NCBI RefSeq assembly: GCF_900105765.1
Contig: NZ_FNTX01000002.1
Span: 1,178,001 to 1,242,000, forward strand
Reading direction: 5' to 3'
Length of the DNA stretch: 64,000 nt
From: Ruania alba
GTDB taxonomy: Bacteria > Actinomycetota > Actinomycetes > Actinomycetales > Beutenbergiaceae
A program made the position numbers and the translations under genes. Within the stretch, counting starts at the first letter, position 1, and every line of letters begins with the position of its first letter. Of the stretch, positions 22,670 through 55,844 are shown one piece after another. The notes below the pieces were generated by a model, which was not told the DNA's origin, made no database searches, and saw nothing but the letters and a program-made list of their open reading frames with translations.

Positions 22670-22864
22670 CGTATGTCTCCCCACATCGCTTTGGACGCAC
22701 CTGGTAGAACCCATGAGCGACGCCAGAAAAGGGGTCGATGGGCTACTGCGTGGTGTGCCGTCAGTGTGCTCCTCGGACTACGAATAAGCACCAGGCTGTA
22801 CGGGTGAAAAGTGGGGCTTTTAGAGGGTGAGGTGAGGGTGAGAAGGGTGAGGAGAGGGGGTGAG
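22670..22864 (-). promoter_or_regulatory. Upstream region of the LPXTG gene with a CTCACCC array
   Basis: Read on the minus strand, four CTCACCC copies (plus-strand GGGTGAG at 22825, 22836, 22845 and 22858) are followed by the core TTTTCACCCGTAC (22810-22798), then about 130 bases to the start codon. The same arrangement precedes the second LPXTG gene. It is probably a multimeric regulator-binding array; the protein is unknown. Confidence 0.6.
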
Positions 22865-25568: not shown

Positions 25569-25764
25569 CGGTCCTCCTGGGGACGGGAATTCGGCCCCCG
25601 GACCCACGCATATTCGCGGCGTGGCGGATTCCCGGAAGCTCTCCCTGGCATCGTGCTCTTGAAAGCGCCCTCTGATACATGCCGGATGGCTATGAGTACG
25701 GGTGAAAAATGCCGCCCGGAAAGGGTGAGATGAGGGTGAGGCAGAGGGTGAGGCGGAGGGTGAG
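25569..25764 (-). promoter_or_regulatory. Upstream region of second LPXTG gene with a CTCACCC array
   Basis: Plus-strand GGGTGAG copies start at 25723, 25734, 25746 and 25758 (steps of 11, 12 and 12 bases, about one helical turn), next to GTACGGGTGAAAA at 25696-25708. The core is 127 bases from the start codon, against 129 in the other LPXTG gene. The far edge lies only about 65 bases from the divergent metal-transporter gene, so it could affect that gene too. Confidence 0.6.
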
Positions 25765-25830
25765 GTGCGCCGTCGGGGTTGACCGCTGCCACAGTTTCGG
25801 CAGCCGCGCGCCGCCTGGAAGACTGGACCC

Positions 25831-26904
25831 ATGACGACCACTCGCGAACCACAGCGTGCGGACGTGCGCCGATGGCGCCGTTATCTCGCGGAGGAACGAG
25901 CGGAGGCCGCCCTCTACACACAACTCGCTGCACGGCGGGACGGTGAGGAGCGGGAGATCCTGCTCGACCTTGCCAACGCCGAGGGCCGGCACGCCGCCCA
26001 CTGGGTGCAGTTGCTCGGTGACCAGATCGGCCGGGAGCGACCGCCGTCGATGCGGTCACGTCTGCTGATCGCCCTGGCCCGCCGGTTCGGCTCGGTCTTC
26101 GTGCTGGCCCTCGCCCAGCGCGCCGAGGCACGGTCCGAGTACGCCGGGGACTCGCACGCCACTCCAGCGATGGCCGCCGACGAACGCATCCACGAGGAGG
26201 TCATCCGCTCGCTCGCGATGCGCGGCCGGGCCAAGATGTCCGGCACGTTCCGGGCCGCGGTGTTCGGGATGAACGATGGGCTTGTCTCGAACCTCGCCCT
26301 CGTGATGGGTATCGGAGCCTCAGGGCTCGGCACCAGCGCTGTGCTGCTGACCGGGATCGCCGGCCTCCTTGCCGGCGCGCTCTCCATGGGAGCCGGCGAG
26401 TACGTCTCGGTCCGCTCCCAACGGGAACTGCTCGAGGCGTCCACGCCTAGCCCGCAGGCGCACGCCGCCGTCGGGGACCTGGACGTGAACGCCAACGAAC
26501 TCGCCCTGGTCTACCGGGCGCGCGGGATGAGCGCCGAGGAAGCACAGGAAAAGGCGGAGCAGCGACTGGCCGACTACAACCCGACCGTTCCACCGCGCCG
26601 GATCGCGCCGCACTCGCTCGAGGAGGTCGGCTCCGCCTGGCAGGCCGCCATCTCCAGCTTCGCGTTCTTCTCCTCCGGAGCGGTGATCCCGGTGCTGCCG
26701 TACGCACTCGGGCTCACCGGTCTGACGGCGGTGCTGCTTGCGGCAGGACTGGTCGGCCTGGCATTGGTGGCCACCGGTGCCGCGGTCGGGGTTCTCTCCG
26801 GTGCTCCGCCGATGCGCCGGGCGCTGCGGCAACTGTTGATCGGGTGGGGTGCTGCCGGGGTCACCTATCTCCTCGGGCTCGCCTTCGGCACCACGGTGGG
26901 CTGA
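25831..26904 (+). CDS. Ferritin-like/VIT1-CCC1 family metal transporter
   Basis: 357 residues in two parts. Residues 1-140 form a ferritin-like helical domain (RYLAEERAEAALYTQLAARRDGEER, NAEGRHAAHW) with Glu and His residues suited to metal binding. Residues 145-357 form the VIT1/CCC1 membrane domain with FGMNDGLVSNLALVMG, SMGAGEYVSVRSQRE and several membrane spans. Relatives move Fe2+ or Mn2+; here export or sequestration is likely. The start sits 10 bases after the sequence CCTGGAAGA. Nothing nearby suggests a special role; it is transcribed away from the LPXTG gene. Confidence 0.9.
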   Translation: MTTTREPQRADVRRWRRYLAEERAEAALYTQLAARRDGEEREILLDLANAEGRHAAHWVQLLGDQIGRERPPSMRSRLLIALARRFGSVFVLALAQRAEARSEYAGDSHATPAMAADERIHEEVIRSLAMRGRAKMSGTFRAAVFGMNDGLVSNLALVMGIGASGLGTSAVLLTGIAGLLAGALSMGAGEYVSVRSQRELLEASTPSPQAHAAVGDLDVNANELALVYRARGMSAEEAQEKAEQRLADYNPTVPPRRIAPHSLEEVGSAWQAAISSFAFFSSGAVIPVLPYALGLTGLTAVLLAAGLVGLALVATGAAVGVLSGAPPMRRALRQLLIGWGAAGVTYLLGLAFGTTVG

Positions 26905-28267: not shown

Positions 28268-28646
28268 GCCCCTCAGGGTAGGGGAGATGAAGGGCCCGGG
28301 CCCGACGGATAGCCGGGGCGGTCACGAACGGGAGTGCTGGCCGCCACGAACGGGGAGTGCGGGACGTGGCCGGCGCAGGGGATGCCGGCCACGTCCCGTA
28401 TGCGCCCCATTGCGCAGTTCCGAACGCGAGGCGCTCTGGAACCGACTCCATCCTGACCTACCACGCCCCGGATGGCGGTCGCGGATGCGTTACATCACTG
28501 CAACGATTCCGTCACGATTGGGTCTGCTGGGTTGCCCGATGGGCCAGCAGGACATCCTGCTGGCCGGGTAGGTGCGAGCCTGCATGGCCCAGGTTCATGG
28601 TCTCGTTCCGTCCGACTCATCCCCTGAAACGTGCCAAGATGGAGTG
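28268..28646. other. Divergent intergenic region with hairpin and direct repeat
   Basis: 380 bases without a credible gene. CACGAACGG-GAGTGC occurs twice, 22 bases apart (28323 and 28345; the second has one extra G). Right after it GGGACGTGGCCGGC (28361-28374) pairs perfectly with GCCGGCCACGTCCC (28384-28397), a terminator-like hairpin oddly placed between two divergent genes. This may mark the edge where the catabolic region joins the older backbone. Confidence 0.45.
28499..28510 (+). promoter_or_regulatory. Candidate LacI-type operator before the lacI-family gene
   Basis: TGCAACGATTCC, on the other strand GGAATCGTTGCA, shares 9 of 12 positions with the TGAATCGTATCA operator found at 43071 and 51657. 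It lies 137 bases before the regulator start, so autoregulation is possible. Confidence 0.35.
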
Positions 28647-29723
28647 GTGAGCGATCGCAGGAGTCATGACGCGGGCACTCCGCCGGTGCCCGCCGGCACG
28701 ACCAACAGACCGAACAGTCGTGACGTCGCGAGACATGCAGGTGTGTCGGTCGGGACGGTCTCGAACGTGTTGAACAAGCCCGAGCTCGTGGCCAGCGAGA
28801 CCCGTGCGAAGGTCGAGGCCGCGATCGGTGACCTGGGCTTCGTGCGGAATCGTTCGGCCCGCCAACTTCGGATGGGGCGGAGCCAGACCGTCGGCCTGCT
28901 CGTCGGTAGCATCAGGGGGCCGTACTTTTCCGAGGTTGCCGCAGGCGTCGAGCGGCGTCTCACCGAAGCCGAGCTCAGTCTCACGCTCAGCAGCTGCGAC
29001 CGCGATGCGGAGACGGAACGCCGGCTGCTCGTCCAGCTCGAGGAGCAGGGGGTTCGCGGGATTCTCCTAGCGCCGTCGAGCGACGATTTCACTGCGATGA
29101 ACCAGCTCCGCAGCCGCGGGACGCCGGTGGTCTTGCTGGATCTGCCGAGTCCCTACCCGGACCAGTGCTCTGTTGCCTCCGACGACGTCAAGGGCGGCGC
29201 CATGGCAGCCGCACACCTGATCGAGATGGGGCACCGCCGGATCGGCCTGGTGACGGCGGGGGCAGCTTTCCACCAGGCGGTTGAGCGTCGTGCCGGCCTG
29301 CATCAGGCAGTCGAGGCTGCCGGCTTGGATGTCAAGACAACGGTTCGAGAGGTCACCGTCGTCACGCCCGGCGCGCAGGCGGGCGAGGCGGCCGTGCCGC
29401 AGCTCATGGCAGGCTCGAATCCCCCGACCGCTGTGATGTGCATCAACGACCTCCTCGCGCTCGGAGTGCTGCGCGGATTGCGTGCGCAGGGCCTTCAGGT
29501 ACCCGACGACGTTGCTGTCGTCGGATACGACGACCTCGAGTTCTCGTCGATGCTGTCACCGTCGCTGACCTCGGTCCGTCGACCGAAGGCGGAGTTCGGT
29601 TCTCGCGCTGCCGCCCTCCTCCTGGACGAGATCGAGCACGGGCAGTCGCACCTTCATGAGCAGGTGCTCTTCACACCGGAGCTCGTCGTCCGTTCCTCGA
29701 GCGACCCGGCCCGGACGCCGTAG
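28647..29723 (+). CDS. LacI family transcriptional regulator
   Basis: 358 residues from GTG 28647. The LacI helix-turn-helix RDVARHAGVSVGTVSNVLNKP lies at about residues 25-45, followed by the hinge helix and a periplasmic-binding-like sugar-sensing domain (VGLLVGSIRGPYFSEVAAGV, MCINDLLALGVLRGL, VAVVGYDDLEFS). The start is uncertain: GGAG sits only 2 bases from it, and an open extension to 28572 exists but looks non-coding. It is the probable repressor of part of this locus; LacI-like operators occur at 31344, 42929, 43071 and 51657. Confidence 0.9.
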   Translation: MSDRRSHDAGTPPVPAGTTNRPNSRDVARHAGVSVGTVSNVLNKPELVASETRAKVEAAIGDLGFVRNRSARQLRMGRSQTVGLLVGSIRGPYFSEVAAGVERRLTEAELSLTLSSCDRDAETERRLLVQLEEQGVRGILLAPSSDDFTAMNQLRSRGTPVVLLDLPSPYPDQCSVASDDVKGGAMAAAHLIEMGHRRIGLVTAGAAFHQAVERRAGLHQAVEAAGLDVKTTVREVTVVTPGAQAGEAAVPQLMAGSNPPTAVMCINDLLALGVLRGLRAQGLQVPDDVAVVGYDDLEFSSMLSPSLTSVRRPKAEFGSRAAALLLDEIEHGQSHLHEQVLFTPELVVRSSSDPARTP

Positions 29724-29874: not shown

Positions 29875-30966
29875 TCAACGACGACCAGCTGCTCGCCCGA
29901 GTTCACGGAGCACCCTCATCTGACTGGCACCTTCCGGCGGCAGTGGTCCGAGGTCGTCCGGGACCGTATGGTCCGGGTGGGGGTGGAAGGGCGTCAGGAT
30001 GTACCGGTCCGCCTTTCCCCCGTGACGGATGAACTGGTCAATGCCGTCCAAGACGTGCTCCCGCCAGAGGTTGTTCCCGCGGTTCCCGCCGATCTCGTCG
30101 GTGCAATTGAGGCCGAACGTGATGCCCAGCTCGTCCCGTACGAAGTCCGCTTGGGCGACCATCCTCTCCCAGGTCATCTTTCCTGCTGGTCCGACGTGCT
30201 CCCTCCGGGGGCGATCGAACGGCTTGTCGAAGTGAATGAAGCTGAGCTCGTATCCGGCGTACTGGAGCTCTCTCTGGAGCCATTCAGCTCGGTGGACGCC
30301 GTCCTCCCAGTGGTCCGGTAGCGGGTCGATGATCCCGATCCGTACGTCCGGTAGCTCAGGCTTGACCTGGTGGAAGAAATCGACCACATCCTGGATGCGA
30401 CGCTCCATGGGGTACCCCTTGTACCTTCCAGGGCCTGGCTTGGAGAGCACACTCTGGACAGCGATGTCCGTCGGGATGATCCCAGCTTCCTTGAACTGGC
30501 GGATGTGTCTGAGCGTCGCGCTGTACACGGGCGGGCCGTCGGGCACCTCCCCCGTTCGGTTGTACTCGCGCCACCACCAGGCGACCACCTCGGTGACGTT
30601 GAAGGCGAAGTTCGAGTTGTGATGGACCGTCGCCATCTTCTCGAGGAACGGGATGTCTCCCTCGAACTGTCCCTCATAGCTGCCCATCCGGACCATGTAC
30701 GTGTCCATGACCCTGCGGGCGGCGGCAAATGAGTCGGGATCGTCGTACCGGCTGAAGAAGTCCGGCGGGATGCCCTTGCCCCAGCCCATGTTGTTCTCGC
30801 AATACCAGAGTTCCGGCAAGTCGCGCGGTCCGTGCGTGGGGTTCGCCGCGCCCGCGGGCAAAGCGGTCAAGGTGCTCGCTCCGGCGGCTCCGGCGATGGC
30901 GCCGCCGGCCACAGTGAGGGCCTGCCGTCTCGTCAGGTTCATCGCTCGTCCGTTCGATGTCGTCAT
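29875..30966 (-). CDS. Tat-exported protein of unrecognised family, paralog P1
   Basis: 363 residues. GGAAGGAT precedes ATG 30966; the signal has LTRRQALTVAGG and a likely cleavage near PAGA-A. The mature part has blocks shared with the proteins at 35606 and 36708: WYxxNN, SRYD, NFAFNVTEVVAWWW, GPPVYSAT, KPGPGR, RIGIIDP, FIHFDKPFDR, TFGLNCTDE, DRYILTPF and GPLPPEGASQMRV. Alternating strand-helix blocks suggest an alpha/beta (TIM-like) barrel; family and activity were not recognised. Position between a LacI gene and a uronate-metabolism pair suggests an extracellular glycan-cleaving enzyme. P1 is the most diverged of the three. Confidence 0.78.
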   Translation of the reverse strand: MTTSNGRAMNLTRRQALTVAGGAIAGAAGASTLTALPAGAANPTHGPRDLPELWYCENNMGWGKGIPPDFFSRYDDPDSFAAARRVMDTYMVRMGSYEGQFEGDIPFLEKMATVHHNSNFAFNVTEVVAWWWREYNRTGEVPDGPPVYSATLRHIRQFKEAGIIPTDIAVQSVLSKPGPGRYKGYPMERRIQDVVDFFHQVKPELPDVRIGIIDPLPDHWEDGVHRAEWLQRELQYAGYELSFIHFDKPFDRPRREHVGPAGKMTWERMVAQADFVRDELGITFGLNCTDEIGGNRGNNLWREHVLDGIDQFIRHGGKADRYILTPFHPHPDHTVPDDLGPLPPEGASQMRVLRELGRAAGRR

Positions 30967-31388
30967 GGTGGATCCTTCCCGGGCTCACCGTGGGTCCGCG
31001 ATCGTGAACCGGGTGAGACCGACTTGTGGGTTCGTTGGTGTGGGGGTCTGCGTCGTGCGCGAATGCTCGGGCGCTCCGGCCGAAGGGTGATCGGGGGAGA
31101 TCTGCCACCTCCGACATAGCCGCCTGTCGTGTCGTCACGGCACTCGGCAGAGCCTTGGGCTCCCCTTCGAACGACCAGTTCCTCTCCAACGAGGACGGTG
31201 CGCGACCGGAGAGGTGCCGTCACGTCCCTTGAAAGGGCGACGGGCCACCAGAGCGGGAGTGGGAGAGATGCGCGCTGGGTATTCCTCATCGTTCACAGCT
31301 CCTTCGCGATGAACTCGATGGGCGGTCGGGATGCGATCTGTCTACTGAGACGTTTCAGTCGGGGGCGAGCGCACGTGATGATGTCCGG
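30967..31388. promoter_or_regulatory. Upstream region of P1 with LacI-type operator
   Basis: 422 bases with no credible gene between the isomerase and P1. ACTGAGACGTTTCAGT at 31344-31359 is a near-perfect 16-bp palindrome with the central CG of LacI-family operators. It is 378 bases upstream of P1 and 30 bases beyond the isomerase stop, so it most likely controls P1, possibly through the LacI protein encoded on its other side. Confidence 0.55.
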
Positions 31389-31841
31389 TCACCCCTGACG
31401 TTCGAGTGCGTCGATCTTGCGTACCCGACGAACGAAGTCCTCCTCCCACATGAACTGTGCGGCGAGGAATGTGTCGCACAGCTCGCGAGCGAGGGCAATG
31501 CCGATGACACGGGCGCCTAGGCAGAGGACGTTCGCTCGGTCATGTTCGACCGCCTGGTGTGCGGAGTAGGTGTCGTGCGCGAGCGCCGCCCGGATCCCGT
31601 TGACCTTGTTGGCCGCGATCGAGACGCCCACACCGGATCCGCAGATCAGGATTCCCCGCGCCTCGGATCCGGCGCTCGCAACAACATGGGCAACGTCAGC
31701 GGCTATATCCGGGAAGTCCGTGACGACGGGAGTTGCCGGCCCGCGGTCGTCTACGGTGTAACCGCGGCGGCGAAGGTGGTCGACGAGATCACCCCGTAGC
31801 GCAAGGCCTGCGTGGTCCGAGCTGATCACCACTGTGGTCAT
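31389..31841 (-). CDS. RpiB/LacAB family sugar isomerase (DhuI-like)
   Basis: 150 residues from ATG 31841, preceded by AGGAGG; the longer open frame upstream is a shadow of the dehydrogenase gene. Family signatures are VVISSDHAG (Asp9-His10), ILICGSGVGVSIAANKVNGIRAA with Cys67, and HDRANVLCLGARVIG. Relatives isomerise ribose-5-phosphate, galactose-6-phosphate or, in streptococcal DhuI, the ketouronate from unsaturated uronic acids. The adjacent upstream KduD-type gene makes the DhuI role the best fit. This is inference from pairing; substrate was not proved. Confidence 0.85.
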   Translation of the reverse strand: MTTVVISSDHAGLALRGDLVDHLRRRGYTVDDRGPATPVVTDFPDIAADVAHVVASAGSEARGILICGSGVGVSIAANKVNGIRAALAHDTYSAHQAVEHDRANVLCLGARVIGIALARELCDTFLAAQFMWEEDFVRRVRKIDALERQG

Positions 31842-31899
31842 GAAAGGCCTCCTGGATTGCCGTGTCTTCCGTGAAGGGGGTATCGGTCCCGCTGCGGCG

Positions 31900-32724
31900 T
31901 CACCGTGCCAGCCATCCGCCGTCCACGGGCAGCACGATCCCGTGGATATAGCGCGCGGAGTCGGATGCCAGGAACAGGGCTGCGTCGGCGATCTCGTCGG
32001 GCTCGCCCCATCGGTCTGCTGGAATGCGGCGCATGATCTCCGTGGACCGGACATCATCTTCCTTGAGCGCGGTGTTGAGTTCGGTCTCGATATAGCCGGG
32101 TGCGATCGCGTTGACATTGACGCCGAGCGGCGCCCACTCGTTGCAGAGTGCCTTGGTCAGTTGGGCGACCGCGCCCTTGGACGCGACGTATGCCGGTGCG
32201 CGGTAGCCGCCGATGAACGACGTCAGGGATGCAATGGTGATGATCTTCCCTGCGCGGCGTTCGACCATCCGCGATCCGATCGCCTGTGTCAGGTGGAAGA
32301 CCGCACGCAGGTTCACCTCCAGAATTCGATCGAACTCATCGAGCGGGAAGTCTGCGCTGTCGTGCCATGCTTGCATCCCTGCGTTGTTCACCAGGATGTC
32401 GATCGGGCCCTCGTCGTTGACGTCGGACGCTAGCTGTCCGACCGACTCCCGCGACGTGAGGTCGACCTCCTTCGTCGAGATGCTTCCTCCGTTATGGATG
32501 TCGTGCCCGCCGAGATCTCCCGGTGTTCGTTGGGCGCAGGTGACGTCGGCGCCGGAGCGTGCGAACGCCAAGGCGATGCCGCGGCCGATTCCCCGGGATC
32601 CTCCCGTCACCAGCACACGTGAACCCTGAAAGTTGTATGAGGCTCCGGCTGGGCGCGCCGTGGTTGGGCGACCGCACTCATTCCCAACGGTTCGGTTGGC
32701 GGGAGTGGGCGAGGTCTCGTCCAT
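31900..32724 (-). CDS. Short-chain dehydrogenase, KduD/DhuD-like
   Basis: 274 residues from ATG 32724 after GGGAAGGACG. Classical SDR motifs: TGGSRGIG (40-47) for NAD(P), NNAG (113-116), Ser166/169 with Tyr179 and Lys183. The C-terminal half strongly resembles 2-dehydro-3-deoxy-D-gluconate 5-dehydrogenase (KduD): NEWAPLGVNVNAIAPGYIET, RIPADRWGEPDEIADAALFLAS and the final VDGGWLAR. KduD acts in breakdown of unsaturated uronic acids from lyase products. The isomerase gene follows 58 bases downstream, giving a likely two-gene operon. An operator for the SorC regulator lies about 70 bases upstream. Confidence 0.86.
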   Translation of the reverse strand: MDETSPTPANRTVGNECGRPTTARPAGASYNFQGSRVLVTGGSRGIGRGIALAFARSGADVTCAQRTPGDLGGHDIHNGGSISTKEVDLTSRESVGQLASDVNDEGPIDILVNNAGMQAWHDSADFPLDEFDRILEVNLRAVFHLTQAIGSRMVERRAGKIITIASLTSFIGGYRAPAYVASKGAVAQLTKALCNEWAPLGVNVNAIAPGYIETELNTALKEDDVRSTEIMRRIPADRWGEPDEIADAALFLASDSARYIHGIVLPVDGGWLAR

Positions 32725-32790
32725 GAGACGTCCTTCCCTCGTTGCCGACACACATCCCTGGATGTCCCGTGACTCCCCTCGACGCTGTGT

Positions 32791-32804
32791 CGCTCATGTG
32801 AGCG
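32791..32804 (-). promoter_or_regulatory. SorC-type operator before the KduD-like gene
   Basis: CGCTCA-TG-TGAGCG is a perfect 6-bp inverted repeat with a 2-bp centre, 67 bases upstream of the dehydrogenase start. The same half-sites and spacing occur at 33887-33904 on the other side of the SorC gene. Confidence 0.65.
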
Positions 32805-32873
32805 GAGTATGTGCTCGAATGGCAAGGAGCCTAGTCGACGTGTCATGAGTGCGCAACCATGGTTCCGCCGGAG

Positions 32874-33818
32874 TCAGTACCTCGCAAGGATCGCCTCGGC
32901 AAGGGCGCGGTCGGCGACCAGCTCGTTGACGTAGCCCGCCCGTACTGCGGCGATCGTGGCTTCTGCGCGCACTTCCCCGAAGGCGCCGGCGAGGAGCCGT
33001 GGCACCCTCGTGAGCTGGTCGAGGTGGATGCCGAGTACGCGATTGCCGATGACGTTCTCGACAGGCGCTCCGGTCTGGTCGAAGAGTCTCCCGTTGACCT
33101 CGCCGACCACGCCGTGTGCGTCGGCCTGCGTTCGGTCGCGCTCGGATGCCGACGCGTGGACGGTCGACTCGCCCGCCGTCCAAGCGCCGACCGATATCGC
33201 AGCCGTGTCGATCGAGTCGAACATCGCGGTCGCCGCTGCGATTGCCGGCTGTCCGAGGAGTGATCGGAGAGCGGCCTCGTCCGTCACGAGCAATGGGGCC
33301 GGGATGGGGAATGCGTCGCCCCCCGAAGCCCGGGCGATCCGGCGCACGAGTTCGGAGGTATCAGGCAAGTCTGTCCCGATCGCCGCGTGACCGGCGAGTT
33401 GGACCGTGGTGCACCTCGGCAGTCGCGTCAGGTGGCGCGTCATCGTGACGAGTGCGCGGCTCCAGTTCATCCCGATGACCTCGCCGGTCTGCACGGTGCT
33501 CTCGAGGACCCTCGCCATCGTGGACCCCACAAGTTCCACGGGGTCCTCCTCGTCGGGTTCGACCACCCAGGCTGCCGTGAGGCCGAGCGCTTCCCGCAGC
33601 TCACTACTCAGGCCAACGTTCACCCCATCGGCGGACCGGATGTCGATGCGGACCAGCCCTTGTTCGCGTGCGCGTTGCAGGAGTCGGGCGACCTGAAACC
33701 TGCTGATGCCATGCGTTTTGGCGATGGCCACTTTCGACTCGTCCTCGACGTAGTACGCGTGCGCTATGGCTGACATGAGCCCAGGCGACAGGTGCGGCTC
33801 GATCGCCGATGGTGCCAT
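32874..33818 (-). CDS. SorC/DeoR-type sugar-binding transcriptional regulator
   Basis: 314 residues. The N-terminal helix-turn-helix (AYYVEDESKVAIAKTHGISRFQVARLLQRAREQGLVRI, about residues 21-58) is followed by the SorC sugar-phosphate sensing domain (IGMNWSRAL, CTTVQLAGHAA, VVGEVNGRLFDQTG). GAAGGAC precedes ATG 33818. Operators with matching half-sites lie upstream of its own start (33887-33904, shared with the sulfatase promoter) and upstream of the dehydrogenase-isomerase operon (32791-32804). It probably represses these genes and itself until a sugar or uronate intermediate builds up. Confidence 0.9.
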   Translation of the reverse strand: MAPSAIEPHLSPGLMSAIAHAYYVEDESKVAIAKTHGISRFQVARLLQRAREQGLVRIDIRSADGVNVGLSSELREALGLTAAWVVEPDEEDPVELVGSTMARVLESTVQTGEVIGMNWSRALVTMTRHLTRLPRCTTVQLAGHAAIGTDLPDTSELVRRIARASGGDAFPIPAPLLVTDEAALRSLLGQPAIAAATAMFDSIDTAAISVGAWTAGESTVHASASERDRTQADAHGVVGEVNGRLFDQTGAPVENVIGNRVLGIHLDQLTRVPRLLAGAFGEVRAEATIAAVRAGYVNELVADRALAEAILARY

Positions 33819-33840
33819 CGTGTGTCCTTCTGGTCGTTGG

Positions 33841-33904
33841 TTGCCGGGTGTGACGCCTGCAGGTAGTCTCTCAAGTGTATCACAGCAGCGCTCAGATGAG
33901 CGCT
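33841..33904 (+). promoter_or_regulatory. Sulfatase promoter and SorC-type operator
   Basis: TTGCCG (33841-33846) and TAGTCT (33864-33869) with a 17-base spacer form a sigma70-like promoter. AGCGCTCA-GA-TGAGCGCT at 33887-33904 is a perfect 8-bp inverted repeat placed just after the expected start of transcription, consistent with repression. It is also 69 bases before the divergent SorC gene. Confidence 0.62.
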
Positions 33905-33970
33905 ATGACGCTAGTTCACGACGTTCCCTTCGCACGCCCGCCACCTAGGTCGCGACCAACGGAAGAGTTC

Positions 33971-35425
33971 ATGGAAGAGTCGGCACGACGACCGAATATC
34001 GTCTTTATCATCACCGACCAGCAGCGCTGGGACACGATCGCGGCTCTCGGGCACGCGCACGCGCATACTCCACACCTCGATCGCCTGGTGCGCGAGGGAA
34101 CGGCGTTCTCCCACATGTACGTGACCTCTCCGTCGTGTGCACCATCCCGCGCCAGCCTCTTCACCGGCCTCTATCCGCACACGACCGGCGTGTACAAGAA
34201 CGACGACGTGTGGCGGCACTCGTGGGTCGAGGAGGTCGCTGCTCAGGGGTACAGGTGCGCGAACGTCGGGAAGATGCACACCTTCCCCTATGACGCTTCC
34301 GTCGGCTTCCACGAGCGTCACGTCGTGGAGAACAAGGATCGTGGGAGCCCCGATCTCCCGTTCCTCTTCGACGACTGGGACAAGGCGCTCTGGAGCCACG
34401 GACATGTCAAGCCGGACCGCCGGACGTTGCGGAACCTCCCGGACTACGGTGACCGGCTCGGCGCATTCGACTGGGAGCTCCCCGAAGACTTGCACGTGGA
34501 CAACTTCGTCGGGAACATGGCACGCCATTGGATCGATGTCTCTCCAGACATCTCCGATCAGCCGTTCTTCCTCCAGGTCGGCTTCCCCGGCCCGCACCCG
34601 CCCTACGATGCCGTACCGCGATACATCGAGAAGTACACGGACCGGGAGATCCCGGACCCGTGCAACTCCCGGCGCGACCGCGACGGTCAGCCGGACGTCC
34701 TCAAGGCACTGCGAGAGCAGCACGTCAGGAACGATCACGACTCGGTGGTCCACGACGAGGACCCGTCACCTGAACGAAGCCGTCGTCAACGTCAGCACTA
34801 CCTGGCGAACATCTCGATGATCGACGCTCAGGTCGGTGGTCTGATCGAGTCGCTCGACGCGCGCGGCGTCCTCGAGGACACCGTCATCATCTTCACGTCG
34901 GACCACGGCGACGCGCTCGGGGACCATGGGCATAGCCAGAAGTGGACCATGTACGAACCGAGCGTCCGTGTGCCAGCCATCGTCTGGGGGCCGGGTCGGG
35001 TTCGAGCGGGGTACGTCGTCGACGAGCTCACCTCGTTGTTCGACCTGGGACCGACCGTCCTCGACCTCGTCGGGGCGGACACGCCGGCCTGGATGGAGGC
35101 GAGGTCCCTGCTCGGTGCTTGTACCGGAGCGGATTGGCGGGGACGCGAGTATGTCTTTGCCGAGCACGCGCGCGACGGGATCCTCACGGAGACCGCCTTA
35201 ATGACCATGGTGCGTAGCTCCGACTGGAAGTTGGTCGAGTTCGTCGACTCCGACCAGGGGCAGTTGTTCGATCTTCGGAGCGACCCGATGGAGGAACAGT
35301 CGCTGTGGGACGACCCTGCCTGTTTGTCAGTCAAGGCGGAGCTTCGGCAGACGATCTCGCGCTGGCGGGCCGAGAGCGCCCTCCACACGGCAGCGGTGGG
35401 GAGAATGCCGACAGCGCTGAGTTGA
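33971..35425 (+). CDS. Sulfatase, no signal peptide
   Basis: 484 residues. The start ATG 33971 has GGAAGAG upstream and gives MEESARRPNIVFIITDQQRWDT, the normal beginning of the fold; a longer frame to 33875 runs through the operator and is not used. Activation motif C56-A-P-S-R60; metal site SDHGDALGDHGHSQKWTMYEPSVRVP further on. It is predicted to be cytoplasmic and to hydrolyse sulfate esters of imported oligosaccharides. Controlled by a promoter with a SorC-type operator, so it should be induced with the KduD/DhuI-like pair. Confidence 0.93.
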   Translation: MEESARRPNIVFIITDQQRWDTIAALGHAHAHTPHLDRLVREGTAFSHMYVTSPSCAPSRASLFTGLYPHTTGVYKNDDVWRHSWVEEVAAQGYRCANVGKMHTFPYDASVGFHERHVVENKDRGSPDLPFLFDDWDKALWSHGHVKPDRRTLRNLPDYGDRLGAFDWELPEDLHVDNFVGNMARHWIDVSPDISDQPFFLQVGFPGPHPPYDAVPRYIEKYTDREIPDPCNSRRDRDGQPDVLKALREQHVRNDHDSVVHDEDPSPERSRRQRQHYLANISMIDAQVGGLIESLDARGVLEDTVIIFTSDHGDALGDHGHSQKWTMYEPSVRVPAIVWGPGRVRAGYVVDELTSLFDLGPTVLDLVGADTPAWMEARSLLGACTGADWRGREYVFAEHARDGILTETALMTMVRSSDWKLVEFVDSDQGQLFDLRSDPMEEQSLWDDPACLSVKAELRQTISRWRAESALHTAAVGRMPTALS

Positions 35426-35512
35426 GGCAGCATGCCGCGGAATGTCGAGTCATGTTGAGCGCGACCGTTGCGCTGTGCGAGGGTTGACGGCCGAGAAGGG
35501 GTGCCGTGCGGT

Positions 35513-35545
35513 GGCGGGAGAGCAGCTCAGCGCTGCCCTCCCGCC
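35513..35545. terminator. Bidirectional terminator between sulfatase and P2
   Basis: GGCGGGAGAGCAGC (35513-35526) pairs with GCTGCCCTCCCGCC (35532-35545) with one mismatch and a 5-base loop, between convergent genes. Confidence 0.7.
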
Positions 35546-35605
35546 GTATCGAGGCGATGCCGTCCGCCTGCTCACTGCGCTGGTGGCAGTACGGTCCGCA
35601 CCGTT

Positions 35606-36688
35606 CTAGCGACGCCGCGCCGCCCCCCGGGCGAGCTCGCGGAAGACGCGCATGTGGCTGGCGCCCTCGGGCGGGAGCGGGCCGAGATCGTCGGGCGTCG
35701 AGTGGTCCGGGTAGCGGAAGAAAGGCCACAGGATGTAGCGGTCCGCCGTCCCGCCGTGCGCGACGTAGTTCGCGAGCCCTTCCAAGGTGTATTTGCGGAA
35801 GTCGTTGTTGCTGGTGTTTCCGGCCCGTTCATCGACGCACTGGAGGCCGAAAGTGATGCCGAGTTCGTTCTGGACGAATTCGCTGGCCTCGACCATCCGG
35901 TCCCAGGTGATGACCCCCTTCGGGGTGTCGCGTTCGAGCCGGATCCGGTCGAAGGGCTTGTCCAGATGGATGAAGTCGAGCTCGTGTCCGTTGGCTCTCA
36001 GTTCATCCTGGAGCCACGTGGACTCGACCTTCAGCGGCCAGGGGTCGATGATGCCGATGCGCACGTCGGGGAACTCGGGCTTGACCTGGTCGTAGAACTC
36101 GACGACGTCCTGGATGCGCCGCTCCACGCTATAGCCCTTGAACCGTCCCGGCCCGGGCTTGGTGAGCACGCTCTGCAACATGATGTCGCCCAGGTTGAAC
36201 CCGGCCGATCGAACCTGGCGCAAGTTGTTGATCGTGGCGGAGTAGTCCGGCGGACCGTCAGGGATCTCTCCCGTGTCACGGTACTTGTGCCACCACCAGG
36301 TGGTTGCCTGGGTCACATTGAACGAGAAGTTCGATTGCGAATGGGCGGCCACCATCTTGTCGAGGAGTTCGGGCGAGTACTTGACCTCGTCGGCGTAGTT
36401 GTCCCCGGCGCCGAGCTGGCTGAAGCAGAACGTGTGCATGGCTCGGCGTGCGTGCTGCCAGGTGTCGAGGGCGTCGTACCTGCTGACGAGGTCCGGCGGC
36501 ATACCGTTGCCACCGAGGCCAAGGTTGTTGTCCTGATACCAGAATTCAGGCACACGGTCGGACGCGTCGGATCCCGCCGACGCCGCTGCGGCGGCCGCTG
36601 GTGCGCCGATCGCTCCTGCGATTGAGGCGCCCGCGGCGGAGGTCAGCACCTGGCGACGGGTGAAGTGGTTCCTGGTCGTGCTGCTCAT
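35606..36688 (-). CDS. Tat-exported protein of unrecognised family, paralog P2
   Basis: 360 residues. GAGGATT precedes ATG 36688; Tat signal FTRRQVLTSAAGAS with an Ala-rich core. It is a close tandem relative of P3 (36708) and a more distant relative of P1 (29875). Shared blocks: PEFWYQDNNLGLGG, PPDLVSRYD, NFSFNVTQATTWWW, PDYSATINNLRQ, KPGPGRFKGYS, RIGIIDPWP, FIHLDKPFDR, TFGLQCVDE, DRYILWPFF, HSTPDDLGPLPPEGAS. Conserved Asp and Glu residues in FDKPFDR, IDP and DE are possible catalytic groups. Last gene of the five-gene minus operon starting at 42786. Activity unknown; an exported polysaccharide-cleaving enzyme is inferred from context only. Confidence 0.78.
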   Translation of the reverse strand: MSSTTRNHFTRRQVLTSAAGASIAGAIGAPAAAAAASAGSDASDRVPEFWYQDNNLGLGGNGMPPDLVSRYDALDTWQHARRAMHTFCFSQLGAGDNYADEVKYSPELLDKMVAAHSQSNFSFNVTQATTWWWHKYRDTGEIPDGPPDYSATINNLRQVRSAGFNLGDIMLQSVLTKPGPGRFKGYSVERRIQDVVEFYDQVKPEFPDVRIGIIDPWPLKVESTWLQDELRANGHELDFIHLDKPFDRIRLERDTPKGVITWDRMVEASEFVQNELGITFGLQCVDERAGNTSNNDFRKYTLEGLANYVAHGGTADRYILWPFFRYPDHSTPDDLGPLPPEGASHMRVFRELARGAARRR

Positions 36689-36707
36689 GGTGAATCCTCT
36701 CGATTGG

Positions 36708-37805
36708 TCACGGGTAGCGTCGGGCGGGCACTCCGCGGGCGAGCTCGCGGAAGATTCTCATCTGGCTCGCGCCCTCGGGTGGGAGCGCACCGAGATCGTC
36801 GGGGGTCGAGTGCTCGGGGTGCGGAAAGAAGGGCCACAGGATGTAGCGGTCTGCTGTCCCGCCGTGCGCGACGTAGTTCGCGAGCCCTTCCAACGTGTGC
36901 TTGCGGAAGTCGTTGCTGCTGGTCTTGCCCGCCTGTTCGTCGACGCACTGGAGCCCGAAGGTGAGGCCTAACTCGTTCTTGACGAACTCACCGACCTCGA
37001 CCATCCGGTCCCAGGTGATGACACCATGCGGGGTGTTGCGTTCGAGACGGACTCGGTCGAAGGGCTTGTCGAAATGGATGAAGTCGAGTTCGTGCCCGTT
37101 GGACCGAAGCTCGTCCTTCAGAAACCGGTAGGCGTCTTGCCACGGAAACTGCCCTGGCAGGGGGTCGATGATCCCGATGCGCACGTCGGGGAACTCTGGT
37201 CTGACTTGGTCGTAGAACTCGACGACGTCCCGGATGCGACGCTCCATGCTGTAGCCCAGGAACCGACCAGGCCCCGGCTTCGCCAGGACGCTCTGCAGAA
37301 TGACGTCCGTGATGGTGAACCCGGTCGAGCGGAGCTGACGCAGGTGGTTGATCGTCGTGGTGTAGTCGGGCGGTCCCTCGGGAACTTCGCCGGTCTCGTT
37401 ATAGTGCGGCCACCACCAGGCCACTGCTTGGGTCACGTTGTAGCAGAAGTTCATTCCGGCGTGGGCGGCCGCCATCTTCTCGAGGAACGCGGGCCGCTCC
37501 GAAAGCCCCTGCCTGACGAAGGTGCCCTGTTCGAGCGCGAAGGTATGCATCTGTGCGCGTGCGAGTGCCCATGAGTCGAGGTCGTCGTACCTGCTGAAGA
37601 AGTCGGTGGGGACCCCTCTGCCGCCCAACCCCAGATTGTTGTCCTGATACCAGAACTCGGGTACGCGTTCGGACGCTTCCGCAGCGCTGTGATCCGTGGC
37701 AGTCGCCGCGGACGCGGTGGCGATGCTCGCGCCCGCGATCGAGATACCTGCTGCGGAGGTCAGTACCTGCCGCCTGGTCATCGCGGGATCGTTCGGATTG
37801 TGCAT
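36708..37805 (-). CDS. Tat-exported protein of unrecognised family, paralog P3
   Basis: 365 residues from ATG 37805, preceded by GGAAGG; the longer open frame upstream is not supported. Tat signal MTRRQVLTSAAGIS, then VPEFWYQDNNLGLGGRG. It matches P2 along its whole length, including NVTQAVAWWW, KPGPGRFLGYSMERRI, RIGIIDPLP, FIHFDKPFDRVRLERNTPHG and TPDDLGALPPEGASQ. Twenty bases separate it from P2, so the two are a recent tandem duplication. Upstream are a sulfatase and a glycosidase in the same operon. No signature of a described glycoside hydrolase or lyase family was recognised. Confidence 0.78.
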   Translation of the reverse strand: MHNPNDPAMTRRQVLTSAAGISIAGASIATASAATATDHSAAEASERVPEFWYQDNNLGLGGRGVPTDFFSRYDDLDSWALARAQMHTFALEQGTFVRQGLSERPAFLEKMAAAHAGMNFCYNVTQAVAWWWPHYNETGEVPEGPPDYTTTINHLRQLRSTGFTITDVILQSVLAKPGPGRFLGYSMERRIRDVVEFYDQVRPEFPDVRIGIIDPLPGQFPWQDAYRFLKDELRSNGHELDFIHFDKPFDRVRLERNTPHGVITWDRMVEVGEFVKNELGLTFGLQCVDEQAGKTSSNDFRKHTLEGLANYVAHGGTADRYILWPFFPHPEHSTPDDLGALPPEGASQMRIFRELARGVPARRYP

Positions 37806-37860: not shown

Positions 37861-39420
37861 TTATCGACTAGGTACGTGTTCGTGGTGGACGCCTGAAGGG
37901 AAGTCCGGGAAACCGGCGACGCCGCGCGACCGGTCGAACTGGTAGACCCGCTGTCGTTCCCACGTCTCGTAGGGCTGCGTCCATAGCCGTGTGGGTTGGC
38001 CTGCCGCCATGACGAGGGCATCCTTGCGCCCCTCGGCGAGGAGCTCGGTGACGAGCGCCTCGGTCAGCTCCTCGACCACCTGCGGGTGGCTGTCCTGGAC
38101 AGGACGGAGCTCGTGCGGATCGGCATCGACGTCGAAGAGCAGCCGATGCCCGCCGTTCGCGAGGAAGATCAGCTTCCACTGGTCCTGGCGGATCATCGCC
38201 TTGAACTTTTTCGTGCGGGGCCGGCCGTGGAAACCGAAGAGACGCCGTCGTGGTTCGACGTCGCCGGACAGCATCCCGAGGACGTCGTGGCCCTGCCGCA
38301 GGTCGGGCCATCCGGTCGCGCCGGTGCAGATACCGAACAGGTCGGTCAAGGACACGAGGTCGTCGCTCTCCTGGTCGGCTGGAATAACGCTCGGCCAGCT
38401 CAGCAGGAACGGGATCCGGGTCGAGGCCTCGAAGAAGCTCTCCTTCTGCCACGCGGTGTGGTCGCCGAGCAGGTCGCCGTGATCGGAGACGAAGCAGATG
38501 AGCACGTTCTCCGGGTCGTCGAGCCGATCGACCGCGTCGAGGATCCGGCCGAGGCAGCTGTCGATGTAACTGATCTCGCCGTAGTATCGGGCCTTCAGTG
38601 CCCGTGCCCGGTCGTCGTCGACGTTCTCCGCGAACGTCATCGCGTTCATCCAGGGGAGCTGCTGATCGAGATGATCGACCTCCAGGTCGCCGGTGACGGG
38701 GAGCGGCATCCGGTCTGGGTCGTACATGCGATGGAACGGCATCGGCGGAGCGAACGGTGGATGCGGGCCGATGAAGGAGACGAAGCCGAAGAATGGACGA
38801 CCGTCGTCCATGGCGATCTGTTCCACTGCACGGTCGGCCGCCCATGCTTCGACGGTCAGGTCTGCGGGCAGCGGGCTCATCTGGGGCATGTAGTACATCT
38901 CGGTTCGCTCGCCCATGAGGCCTTCGACCCAGTCGTACTCGGGATGTTCCGAGGCGATCCACGCCGCGTACGCGTCTCCGGCCCGCTGCGCCGGCGTGTC
39001 GTACAGCTCCTCGCTGTGGAGCTGGACCGTGTAGCCGACATCGGCGTCCCATGGATAGGTGTGGAACTTGCCGATACCGAACGTCCGGTATCCGCGTTCC
39101 TTCATCGCACCGGCGAGATAGGGGCCGGCCTCATCTCGGATCTCCTCGTGCCGACCTGGCGGCACGAGGTTGTCCCAGATGTCGGTGCGGGTGGGTTCCC
39201 AGCCGGTACGCATGGTGTACCGGGCAGGCACGCAGACCGGACACGTCGAGTATCCGCGGTGGAAGACGGTGCCACGCCTCGCGAGCCGATCCAAGTTGGG
39301 TGTGTGGATGCTGTCGTTCCCCAGGCACGCCAACGTGTCGAAGCGCTGCTGATCTGTCGAGATGAGCAGGACGTCGGGGCGACGTGCGTCCTTCTGCCCC
39401 TTTCCGGAGTCTTCGCTCAT
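37861..39420 (-). CDS. Sulfatase, no signal peptide
   Basis: 519 residues. ATG 39420 overlaps the stop of the glycosidase gene (ATGA), so it is translationally coupled; the longer frame to 39477 has no support. N-terminal LLISTDQQRFDT, activation motif C63-V-P-A-R67, metal site VSDHGDLLGDHTAWQKESFFE. No signal peptide, so a cytoplasmic enzyme. Third gene of the operon binding protein, GH63-like, sulfatase, P3, P2. A type I sulfatase with unknown regiospecificity, probably removing sulfate before or after the action of the adjoining glycosidase. Confidence 0.93.
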   Translation of the reverse strand: MSEDSGKGQKDARRPDVLLISTDQQRFDTLACLGNDSIHTPNLDRLARRGTVFHRGYSTCPVCVPARYTMRTGWEPTRTDIWDNLVPPGRHEEIRDEAGPYLAGAMKERGYRTFGIGKFHTYPWDADVGYTVQLHSEELYDTPAQRAGDAYAAWIASEHPEYDWVEGLMGERTEMYYMPQMSPLPADLTVEAWAADRAVEQIAMDDGRPFFGFVSFIGPHPPFAPPMPFHRMYDPDRMPLPVTGDLEVDHLDQQLPWMNAMTFAENVDDDRARALKARYYGEISYIDSCLGRILDAVDRLDDPENVLICFVSDHGDLLGDHTAWQKESFFEASTRIPFLLSWPSVIPADQESDDLVSLTDLFGICTGATGWPDLRQGHDVLGMLSGDVEPRRRLFGFHGRPRTKKFKAMIRQDQWKLIFLANGGHRLLFDVDADPHELRPVQDSHPQVVEELTEALVTELLAEGRKDALVMAAGQPTRLWTQPYETWERQRVYQFDRSRGVAGFPDFPSGVHHEHVPSR

Positions 39421-40712
39421 GAGGGATGCCCGCCTGCGTCGTCCTCGGCCTGGGGGAGCTCGAGACCGCGCAACCACCAGTCGCTACCGGTCTCGAGGTC
39501 GGAGACCAGCTGGGGCAGCATCAGTCCCCAACTGCCGATGCCCAGAGCTGCGAGGCCACTCCCGGTCTCGGCATCGAAGTTCTCGAAGTAGGCGCCGTGC
39601 TCCTCGAGGGAAGCCGCGTGCAACGTCATGATCCGCGCCGCGACCTCGCGCGCTTCATCGAAGTAGCCGTAGCGGCGCAGGTACTGGACGGCGAAGTAGT
39701 TGTGGAGCGCCCACACGGGGCCTTGCCAGTTCGAGCACGTTGCGGTGTCGATCGCGGGACCTTGCATCGCGTGATGTCCGATCGGCATGGCGATCCCGTT
39801 GTGCGCATTGTTGTAGTGCCGCGAGGACCTACTCAGCGACCGGATGCCGTAGTCGCTCCACATGTGTTCGGCGGAGAGAACGTACCGGTCGATGATTCGC
39901 CGAGCGCGGGTATCCGGGACGATGCCGAGCCAGAGCGGCCACAGGTTGGACGCATGCGCGGCACTGATGTGCTGAGAGGGCGACTGCCGCAGCGGCGGAA
40001 TGTAGAGGCTGTAGTAGAACGCGTCCTCCTCGTTCCAGAGCAGCCTGTTGATGCTCGCTGCAAGGCGCCTCGCGTATGCGGTGTGGCGCGATGCCCGGCG
40101 TTCGTCGCCGACTCGCGTAGCCAGCCAGGCGAACGCGGTGTGCTCGTAGACCATCTGGGCATTGAGGTCAACGGCTTCGACGACGTTCGGCTCCCAGGCC
40201 CAGTTCGCCGTCGCGTTGTCGCCGAAGCCTTCGTCGATGTGCAGCCACGTGAGGAGGCCCTCGCGTCCCATGTTGTGGGAGTGCCGGTACAGCAGGTAGG
40301 CCTCGAGCTGCTCGAAGCCCTCAGGCCCGAGCCACGTGACGTCGTCGGTCTCGCGCGAGAGCACGAAGCAACCCGCGGCGAGGAACGGGCGGATCTGGTA
40401 CGGCGGAGCGCTGTACCGGTCCTTCCCGATCCGCCGCTGGCCCTTGCCGTCGGGGCCGATGTGCTCGAGCAGGTTGAGGAGGCTGTTGCGGAGCGGCTCG
40501 GCGTCTCCGTCGATCAGGTACGCCGCGCCCGCCCAGATCGCGTCCCAGTCCGTGAGGTCCGGGTAGGTCTGTCCAGTCCCTGCGGACAAGTACGGTCGCG
40601 TCAGCATGCCGGCTGCTGGCCGTAGCAAGCCACTCTTGATCTCGGAGCGGTACGCATGGATCCGGTCGGCGTCTGACTGGAGCTTCGTCGGCTGGTCGGG
40701 AGCGTCGGGCAT
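39417..40712 (-). CDS. GH63/GH37-like (alpha/alpha)6 glycoside hydrolase
   Basis: 431 residues, no signal peptide. Marks of the trehalase/glucosidase-like MGH1-type barrel: DWDAIWAG (55-62), DLNAQMVYEH (182-191) and NWQGPVWALHNYF (328-340), the last being a near-invariant block of GH37/GH63 and mannosylglycerate-hydrolase-type enzymes. The frame ends by overlapping the sulfatase start. It is predicted to hydrolyse an imported oligosaccharide in the cytoplasm; the sugar and linkage cannot be told from sequence. GAGG precedes ATG 40712. Confidence 0.8.
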   Translation of the reverse strand: MPDAPDQPTKLQSDADRIHAYRSEIKSGLLRPAAGMLTRPYLSAGTGQTYPDLTDWDAIWAGAAYLIDGDAEPLRNSLLNLLEHIGPDGKGQRRIGKDRYSAPPYQIRPFLAAGCFVLSRETDDVTWLGPEGFEQLEAYLLYRHSHNMGREGLLTWLHIDEGFGDNATANWAWEPNVVEAVDLNAQMVYEHTAFAWLATRVGDERRASRHTAYARRLAASINRLLWNEEDAFYYSLYIPPLRQSPSQHISAAHASNLWPLWLGIVPDTRARRIIDRYVLSAEHMWSDYGIRSLSRSSRHYNNAHNGIAMPIGHHAMQGPAIDTATCSNWQGPVWALHNYFAVQYLRRYGYFDEAREVAARIMTLHAASLEEHGAYFENFDAETGSGLAALGIGSWGLMLPQLVSDLETGSDWWLRGLELPQAEDDAGGHPS

Positions 40713-40806: not shown

Positions 40807-42786
40807 CTACTCGCGGAAGTACTGGCAGGGATTGGTGCTTGCCGGATTCGGGTATGCCCCGGTCACCAGGTTCTCGGGGACGTTGTGGAAGTCGTTCTTG
40901 ACGATCCCGAATGCGTCGGCCCACAGGGAGATGCCGATCGTGTAGAACTCCTCCTTGGCGATCTGCAGGATCTCCGTGAGGATTTCTTTCTGCCGATCGG
41001 CATCGGCGACGGTGGTGAGCTCGTCGTACAGCTCCATCTGCCGCTTGACTGGTTCGATCGGCTCCTCGCCCGCCTCGCCCCGGCTGGTGTACCACTGCAT
41101 CCACGGGAGGGCGTACCTGCTGAACGGGCCGAAGGGGAAGTACATGCTCGGTTCGACCAGAGCATTCAGCCCGCCGGTGGCGAAGTGGACAGCAGCATCG
41201 TGCTGATTGCCGTTCAGCCGCTCGGTGTAGAGCGACGGGTCCTCGGACTTGATGGTGATCTCGATGCCGACGGCCTGCCAGTCGTCTTTGACGAACTGCA
41301 TCGAGTCGACGTCGGGCGTTCGCTGGACCATGGCCTCGACCTCGAAGGAGATCGGGTTTCCGTCGGGCCCGAGGCGGATCCCGTTCCCGTTCGTCTCGGT
41401 GTAGCCGGCCCGATCGAGGAACTCGTTGGCGAGGTCGACGTCGTACTCGGTGTACTGGTGAGCCATTTCCTCGTCGTAGAACTCCGACGACGGCCGAGGC
41501 GACGCCTGGTAGGGCTCGCCCTGGCGGGCATAGACGGCGTCGATGATCGCCTGGCGGTTGATCGCATGGGAGAGCCCGATGCGGAAATCCTTGTTCTGGA
41601 AGATCTCCCGCTTGACCGCGTCTTGGTGGGCGAGGTTGAGCTGGATGACGGGCGCTACCGAGTGCGATCGCTCGATACTGATGAAGTCGTAGTTGCCATC
41701 CTCGCGGTTCTCGGCGAACAAGGGCTTGTTGGTCGACTGGCCGATGTTCGGGAAATGGAAGTCGAGTTCTCCGTTGATCGCATTGAGCGTGAGGGCCTCG
41801 ACGTCGGAGTAGACCGGGAAGTTGACCGTGTCGATGTAGGGCAGCTGGCTCCCCTCGGGGTCGACCTTCCAGTAGTACGGGTTCCGAGTGGCGACGAACT
41901 CCTGGACGTCCTCGTTCAGGCCGTGGTCGAGGACCCACGCGGAGAGCGTCGGCAGTTCCGGGTTGTTGTACCGCGTATCGAAGGTTCCTCCCTTCGCGGC
42001 GAATAGCTCGACCCAGCTACTGGCGCCCTCCTCGGCGATCAGGGCGTCGATGTCGTCGGCGTAGTCCGGGTGGAACTGGGAGAGGTAGTGCTTCGGGGAC
42101 CGAGTGATCTGATCGCCCTCCTGGGCCATCTTCGACAGGAAGAGGCCGTTCGGTTGCGCGAAGGTGAACGTGACCGTGTAGTCGTCGAGCTTCTCCACCA
42201 CCACGGGTTCACCGGCCGAGGTGAGCCACGATGTCTTGGCCGGGTAGAGGTCGTCGTTGAGGAAGACGGCCTCGTACCAGAACATGATGTCGTCGGCGGT
42301 CAACGGCTCGCCGTCGGACCACCGCATCCCCTCGCGCAGGGTGAACGTGTACTGCGTGCTGTCGTCGCTGTACTCGAACGACTCCGCCACGTTGGCGACC
42401 ACGCCCTGTGCGGTCATGTCTGTGGTGTTCGGCTGGAACGTGACCAGGTACTCGCCGCCGATGGTGAAGTCCACCCAGGCACCGCTGTTGGCGGCGCCGA
42501 GCATCGCCGTGCGCCACGACCCGCCGTAGATCCCTACGCGATCGACCGGTTCGACGACCGACGGAGCGGACGGAAGGCGTTCCTCGACCGGGGGAAGGTC
42601 GCCTGCCTCCACCCGGGCGGCGAGGTCGGGCGCCTCGGCTCCCTTCTCAGCCGAGGTGCCGTTCCCGCCGTCACCCCCCTCGTCCAAGAGGTCGCAGCCG
42701 CTGACGAGGAAGGAGGTGGCAAGCGCCCCACCTCCCAGTACGAGGAAGTTCCGGCGCGGCATGTTCTGCAGTGTGCTGTCTCGCAT
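40807..42786 (-). CDS. ABC oligosaccharide/peptide-binding lipoprotein (SBP family 5)
   Basis: 659 residues. Tat-like lipoprotein signal PRRNFLVLGGG with lipobox VSGC and Cys31 as the lipidated residue; an Asp/Gly-rich linker follows. Family-5 blocks include YTFTLREGMRWSDGEPLTADDIMFWYEAV, FPNIGQSTNKP and IGLSHAINRQAIIDAVY. Such proteins bind peptides but in carbohydrate loci often bind oligosaccharides. AAAGGAGC precedes ATG 42786. It heads the minus operon and is divergent from the matching permease genes, with two LacI-type operators between them. Confidence 0.92.
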   Translation of the reverse strand: MRDSTLQNMPRRNFLVLGGGALATSFLVSGCDLLDEGGDGGNGTSAEKGAEAPDLAARVEAGDLPPVEERLPSAPSVVEPVDRVGIYGGSWRTAMLGAANSGAWVDFTIGGEYLVTFQPNTTDMTAQGVVANVAESFEYSDDSTQYTFTLREGMRWSDGEPLTADDIMFWYEAVFLNDDLYPAKTSWLTSAGEPVVVEKLDDYTVTFTFAQPNGLFLSKMAQEGDQITRSPKHYLSQFHPDYADDIDALIAEEGASSWVELFAAKGGTFDTRYNNPELPTLSAWVLDHGLNEDVQEFVATRNPYYWKVDPEGSQLPYIDTVNFPVYSDVEALTLNAINGELDFHFPNIGQSTNKPLFAENREDGNYDFISIERSHSVAPVIQLNLAHQDAVKREIFQNKDFRIGLSHAINRQAIIDAVYARQGEPYQASPRPSSEFYDEEMAHQYTEYDVDLANEFLDRAGYTETNGNGIRLGPDGNPISFEVEAMVQRTPDVDSMQFVKDDWQAVGIEITIKSEDPSLYTERLNGNQHDAAVHFATGGLNALVEPSMYFPFGPFSRYALPWMQWYTSRGEAGEEPIEPVKRQMELYDELTTVADADRQKEILTEILQIAKEEFYTIGISLWADAFGIVKNDFHNVPENLVTGAYPNPASTNPCQYFRE

Positions 42787-55211: not shown

Positions 55212-55844
55212 TCACGACGGCGTCCCTCGAGCCCGTAGGCCCCTCGCCACGATCCGGTCGATCGCCCAGGCGGCCCCGCTGCCCGCCACGAGCGCGCCGG
55301 CCAGCGGGGAGACCGCCGTGACGGCGAGGGCAGCGGCGAGCGTCAGCAGGGCCCCCGCCACGTGCACCGGCATGGCCAAGGTGAGGGTCGTCGTCGTGCG
55401 CAGCAGCCCGCGCCACGGCAGGTCGTAGGAGACGATGACGGGGAACAGCACGGTGGAGGCGCCAGCGAACAACAGGGCGAGCGCCCCGGTGATCACGCCG
55501 AGCACCATCGAGGCCCCGGCTCCCATCTGCTGGACGATCACGACATCCACGGCAAGCACCCCGGCCACGGCCAGCCATCCGAGACCGAGGAGGGTGCGCC
55601 GTCGTAGATCGGTGCGCAGGGCGCGCGCGAAAGCGACTACCGGCGTCACCTCGGAGCCGAGACGTCGATCGCGCAGCACCGAGAACAGGGCCGCTGTCGC
55701 CGGGACGAAGGTGACCACCGGAAGGGAGGCGAGCAACCAGACCAGGTTCAGCAGCACCATGTCGCTGGCCGCCGCGAGCGACCGGTAGAGGGGGCCGGCG
55801 GTGACGTCGCGGGGGCGGGCGCCGGTGACAGTACTCGCGCTCAT
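55212..55844 (-). CDS. YesL family membrane protein (DUF624)
   Basis: 210 residues with about five membrane spans (LNLVWLLASLPVVTFVPATAALFSVLRD, then GLGWLAVAGVLAVDVVIV and others). The N-terminal LYRSLAAASDMVLLNLVWLL and PATAALF motif are typical of YesL/DUF624 proteins, which accompany CUT1 sugar importers; in Bacillus subtilis yesL is next to the rhamnogalacturonan genes yesOPQ. Exact role unknown, perhaps assembly or control of the transporter. It starts 16 bases after the permease gene. Confidence 0.87.
   Translation of the reverse strand: MSASTVTGARPRDVTAGPLYRSLAAASDMVLLNLVWLLASLPVVTFVPATAALFSVLRDRRLGSEVTPVVAFARALRTDLRRRTLLGLGWLAVAGVLAVDVVIVQQMGAGASMVLGVITGALALLFAGASTVLFPVIVSYDLPWRGLLRTTTTLTLAMPVHVAGALLTLAAALAVTAVSPLAGALVAGSGAAWAIDRIVARGLRARGTPS

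Follow-up and report, generated by a model that had tools for sequence, protein, structure and literature searches.

S1 sulfatase PULs combine sulfatases and glycosidases with ABC import and with regulators of the LacI and SorC types. Genes of all these kinds also surround three paralogous genes, P0001, P0002, and P0003, in a 64,000-nucleotide stretch of the Ruania alba genome, hereafter called the window. In contrast to the described PULs, the chain-cleaving slot would here be filled by a family without a described member, and the genome is without GH88 or GH105. The (beta/alpha)8 barrel is very common among glycan-cleaving enzymes and carries its active site at the C-terminal ends of the strands, and TIM barrels also serve many enzymes that do not act on glycans. 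In clan GH-A, strand 4 of the barrel ends in Asn-Glu, which contains the acid/base, and the nucleophile is a Glu at the end of strand 7. The usual source of 4-deoxy-5-hexosulose uronate is GH88 or GH105. The dhuD-dhuI clusters for this compound have been described (PMC12838403).

The three genes were present at the positions given in a preliminary description of the window, all on the minus strand, which had not been stated there. P0003 (36708..37805, 365 aa), which comprises a Tat signal and, at residues 46-365, a predicted (beta/alpha)8-barrel domain, is the first gene of a tandem pair, and P0002 (35606..36688, 360 aa), 72% identical to P0003, begins 20 bp downstream of it. P0001 (29875..30966, 363 aa) is the most divergent copy in the window, with 56–57% identity to P0002 and P0003. 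The proposed paralogy was borne out by the mutual identity of 56–72% over about 320 aa, which is far beyond chance, with conserved blocks throughout the mature part. The shared motifs that had been listed are real, except that two were misspelled and should read NVT-x4-WWW (not x3) and IH[FL]DKPFDR (not FxDKPFDR). The Tat signal, read from the sequence as TRRQ[AV]L, a hydrophobic stretch, and AxA, was likewise confirmed in all three proteins. All complete copies of the family carry an export signal, which resembles that of a Tat lipoprotein in the homolog L034 and is Sec-like in the homolog L035.

That the family is an unrecognised one also proved correct. P0001–P0003 gave no match above the curated cut-offs in Pfam-A, including its GH and PL families, or in NCBIfam, the best scores being at chance level (10–15 bits), and a profile search of the PDB by sequence returned chance matches only. 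No description of the family was found in the open-access literature.

P0003 and P0002 are the last two genes in a same-strand order of solute-binding protein, GH63/trehalase-like glycosidase, sulfatase, P0003, and P0002. The run is headed by a family-5 extracellular solute-binding protein (40807..42786, minus strand). The GH63/trehalase-like (MGH1-like) glycosidase (39417..40712, minus strand) overlaps the start of the sulfatase gene (PF00884; 37861..39477, minus strand), which lies 55 bp upstream of P0003. The same order, ending in two homologs, is kept in the congener G004, in which the partners are 69–77% identical (69% for the solute-binding protein, 71% for the glycosidase of the same operon, and 77% for the sulfatase in the same position). 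A second sulfatase gene (33875..35425, plus strand), the closest solved structures of which are choline-sulfatase-like, is convergent to P0002.

The direct neighbours of P0001 are a convergent LacI-family regulator (28572..29723, plus strand) and an RpiB/LacAB-like isomerase with a possible DhuI role (31389..31838, minus strand). The isomerase lies between P0001 and a KduD/DhuD-like short-chain dehydrogenase (31900..32751, minus strand), for which the best PDB match was 2-deoxy-D-gluconate 3-dehydrogenase (E = 2e-63), and a regulator with a SorC-type sugar-binding domain is encoded at 32874..33818 (minus strand). The neighbours are of the kinds that had been reported, namely, sulfatase, glycosidase, or uronate-metabolism genes. 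P0001 is not directly beside a sulfatase, the nearest sulfatase domain being 3.05 kb away.

Besides the three window copies, the Ruania alba genome contains two further tandem copies at a second locus, and one of the seven other genomes of the genus, that of G004, carries a tandem pair. In the tandem homologs of G004 at L015:9792-12058, the C-terminal halves are mostly identical at the protein level while the N-terminal halves diverge, and this pattern suggests a recent gene conversion. When 396 genomes of the phylum were searched with a seven-sequence profile, a single further genus was picked up, with the distant relatives L024 and L025. An earlier scan of GTDB contigs with a narrower profile returned no relatives; a wider profile detected L033 and L034 in two actinobacterial draft genomes, one of them labelled Rubrobacteraceae, and L035 and L036 in two Methylococcaceae draft genomes. 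The complete relatives in the Rubrobacteraceae and Methylococcaceae drafts align end to end with the family at 24–39% identity. Matches in G061 and G076 were rejected as chance, as they were SRAP-type peptidases aligned over 50–58 residues only, and G282 gave a weak profile match. Members occurred in 2 of 24 genomes of the host's own family and in 1 of 395 of the host's class. For the order that includes the Rubrobacteraceae the count was 2 of 39, and for the class to which the Methylococcaceae genome belongs it was 1 of 369. No members were found in plasmid and viral sequences. This very sparse distribution suggests that the family was spread by horizontal transfer or was often lost.

The association with sulfatases was also observed at other loci. 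At the second locus, which is common to Ruania alba and G004 (L020 and L015), another, unrelated sulfatase flanks the tandem copies. In the Rubrobacteraceae contig L034, the homolog at 9854-10981 stands in a tight run of sulfatase, sulfatase, homolog, and sulfatase, and in L033 a sulfatase directly follows the homolog. The sulfatase subfamilies at the window locus, the second locus, and L034, which represent two actinobacterial lineages, share only 21–30% identity. Since the three groups are so dissimilar, the association arose more than once, or the sulfatases were replaced. About 1.5% of random contig positions were as near a sulfatase as the P0002/P0003 pair. The Ruania alba genome (4.8 Mb) gave 55 sulfatase-domain hits, and the adjacency is therefore less surprising, and weaker evidence, than it would be in an average genome.

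Conversely, L026 and L027, which are secreted proteins of 620–640 aa from other families of the phylum with a barrel that has no Pfam match, have no sulfatase neighbours. They constitute a second unnamed family, which a profile–profile comparison identified as a remote sister group (probability 97.9%, P = 4e-13 over 176 columns). As in the P0001–P0003 family, strand 6 carries His-x-Asp, and the motif at strand 8 is similar, whereas they have extra C-terminal domains and a Glu at strand 4 in place of Gln171. The expectation that homologs would stand beside sulfatases elsewhere held for the distant lineage of L034. Two outcomes had been named as contrary to a new enzyme class, a clear match to a described family of unrelated function and homologs located mostly away from glycan-degradation genes; neither was observed, apart from the lack of sulfatase neighbours in the remote sister group L026/L027.

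The Methylococcaceae relatives lie within an exopolysaccharide-synthesis cluster containing rml-type genes and GT2 and GT61 glycosyltransferases, part of which is repeated in the second Methylococcaceae draft genome. The cluster also encodes two sulfotransferase-like proteins, one of them with a weak Pfam match. Glycan-cleaving enzymes, such as PslG and AlgL, are common inside synthesis clusters. Proteins that start with HIGMHKTGS[TS]SIQ, a sulfotransferase-like P-loop, are encoded beside the homolog in the methanotroph clusters (L035:8417-9772, L035:12629-13996, and L046:3707-5071); none of them had a confident Pfam match.

The fold was predicted with AlphaFold2 from a seven-row alignment of sequences from the window and the relatives' contigs; a first model from three sequences had been too poor for use (pLDDT 49). 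The model is an eight-stranded (beta/alpha)8 barrel with strands alternating with helices (pLDDT 80.9, pTM 0.85). In VIA-align, GH1 and GH53 glycosidases ranked at the top (Z 15–16, rmsd 4.2–4.5 over about 260–290 residues), although all of the matches were TIM barrels. The Foldseek matches were mixed, including pyruvate carboxylase, which had the best E-values, GH10, GH26, GH53, and epimerases. Neither search identified a single close family, and many TIM barrels tied; therefore, the fold by itself leaves the function undecided.

In P0003 numbering, which equals the model numbering plus 45, 12 polar residues are invariant: Tyr53, Asn56, Asn57, Asp68, Gln171, Lys176, Arg190, Asp193, His244, Asp246, Thr264, and Tyr321. 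Seven of these 12 lie at the C-terminal ends of strands in the model (P = 0.003 in a post hoc test), namely, Tyr53, Asn56, and Asn57 at strand 1, Gln171 and Lys176 at strand 4, and His244 and Asp246 at strand 6. The same test with all 33 invariant residues gave a P value of only 0.09. Asp246 is the sole invariant acid at a strand end, Asp68 is the only other one on a loop of this face, and the pair of invariant carboxylates usual in glycosidases was not found in the alignment.

These features were compared with clan GH-A, which shares the barrel fold, as seen in the model and its matches to GH1, GH53, and GH10, and likewise holds catalytic residues at the C-terminal face, where the family's invariant polar residues cluster. 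Sequence identity to clan GH-A is only about 7–14%. In contrast to the Asn-Glu of the clan, strand 4 ends in Gln171-Ser/Gly, and strand 7 ends in [Cys/Thr]-[Val/Thr]-[Asp/Ser]-[Glu/Gly/Arg], with no conserved Glu at either end. Because the paired catalytic glutamates are missing, the family lies, on the features tested, outside clan GH-A, although it may still act in a glycosidase-like manner.

Taken together, the homology of the proteins, their export signals and predicted fold, the residues that are conserved, and the gene neighbourhoods lead us to infer catalysis, a sulfated glycan as the substrate, and hydrolysis. P0001–P0003 would then be exported (beta/alpha)8-barrel enzymes of a new family that cuts sulfated glycan, with a probability of roughly 0.58. 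The exported paralogs would cut glycosidic bonds of a sulfated polysaccharide or its oligosaccharides extracellularly, the sulfatases of the same operon would strip the sulfate, the GH63/trehalase-like enzyme would act on the products, and the linked solute-binding protein and ABC transporter would take them up. The active site would lie at the C-terminal face of the barrel, formed by Tyr53, Asn56, Asn57, Gln171, Lys176, His244, Asp246, and perhaps Asp68, with His244/Asp246 as the most likely acid–base pair. We propose more tentatively, at somewhat less than even odds, that this is a new family of barrel CAZymes, the site of which is non-canonical (Asn-Asn, Gln, Lys, and His-x-Asp) and serves to cleave sulfated polysaccharides. 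Actinobacteria would use the family for degradation together with sulfatases, and methanotrophs would use it inside the exopolysaccharide-synthesis cluster.

The uronate evidence at the locus consists of the one RpiB-like isomerase and the one KduD-like reductase beside P0001. The adjacency of these two genes resembles that in dhuD-dhuI/kduD clusters (PMC12838403), whereas Ruania alba is without GH88/GH105, and the role of the isomerase is here inseparable from that of a ribose-5-phosphate isomerase. The resemblance would fit a polysaccharide lyase, in which Lys176, His244, or Tyr53 takes the C5 proton of a uronate, Asn56, Asn57, or Gln171 neutralises the carboxylate, and the unsaturated products pass to the RpiB-like and KduD-like enzymes. 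A lyase site would also fit the scarcity of carboxylates among the invariant residues, which include Asn, Gln, Lys, His, and Tyr. However, no GH88/GH105 unsaturated-uronate hydrolase was found in the genomes of Ruania alba and G004, and the isomerase–reductase pair occurs with P0001 only and did not appear in the flanking stretches covered at the second locus and in Rubrobacteraceae. A lyase is for these two reasons not favoured, being possible but unlikely, and no TIM-barrel polysaccharide lyase was found in the open-access literature. Because of the absence of GH88/GH105 from both family-carrying genomes of the genus, hydrolysis is more likely than elimination, and the argument of the preliminary description, that the locus serves unsaturated uronates yet shows no standard extracellular lyase apart from one beta-helix protein, is weakened and was set aside as proof of a new lyase. 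The idea that the paralogs are candidate polysaccharide-cleaving enzymes is strengthened.

The missing canonical catalytic pair, together with the glutamine that replaces the strand-4 glutamate of L026/L027, would also be expected of a non-catalytic or formerly catalytic protein. Such a barrel, either secreted or held by a lipid anchor, would bind sulfated glycan and pass it on to the sulfatases or to the solute-binding protein. The tandem copies and the Tat-lipoprotein form (L034) suit such binding, but the strand-end polar residues are kept across phyla at 24–39% identity, beyond the needs of loose binding, which makes this role quite improbable. Sugar chemistry other than chain cleavage, for example, by an extracellular epimerase or a sulfatase-assisting ester hydrolase, is about as improbable. 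D-tagatose/D-psicose 3-epimerases and pyruvate carboxylase gave similar Foldseek E-values, whereas glycosidases led in VIA-align, albeit among TIM barrels throughout. Moreover, xylose-isomerase-like epimerases, such as D-tagatose 3-epimerase, hold a Glu-Asp-His-Glu metal site at the strand ends, and this set is absent from the P0001–P0003 family, in which strands 5, 7, and 8 end without an invariant Glu or His.

If the hydrolytic reading of the P0001–P0003 family is true, an enzyme family would be added for sulfated polysaccharides. To our knowledge, enzymes that cleave these polysaccharides are scarce, and they are useful for structure analysis and for preparing defined oligosaccharides. The family would also help to account for the cleavage of such chains by actinobacteria that are rich in sulfatases but do not follow the usual lyase route, and the unusual set of residues would offer a mechanism open to testing. 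Direct tests are feasible because the domain, at about 320 aa, is compact and is found in unrelated bacteria.

Several other genes of the window were noted. A 318-aa open reading frame at 55801-56757 (plus strand), between sulfatase and transporter genes, has no Pfam match and is possibly false. A gene for a DUF1961 protein (4402-6524, plus strand) overlaps the start of a sulfatase gene, and the two may form a functional pair. The 762-aa protein encoded at 8639-10927 (plus strand), which has a FIMAH domain and matches GHL6 below the threshold, is possibly another glycan-active enzyme. In addition, two large surface proteins (18671-22714 and 23184-25841, minus strand) have acidic N-terminal regions, repeats of the type 'VTQAVCxxGxLxxPTLTLP...VTVTATLADGYEWG', and an LPxTG-like sorting signal at the end.
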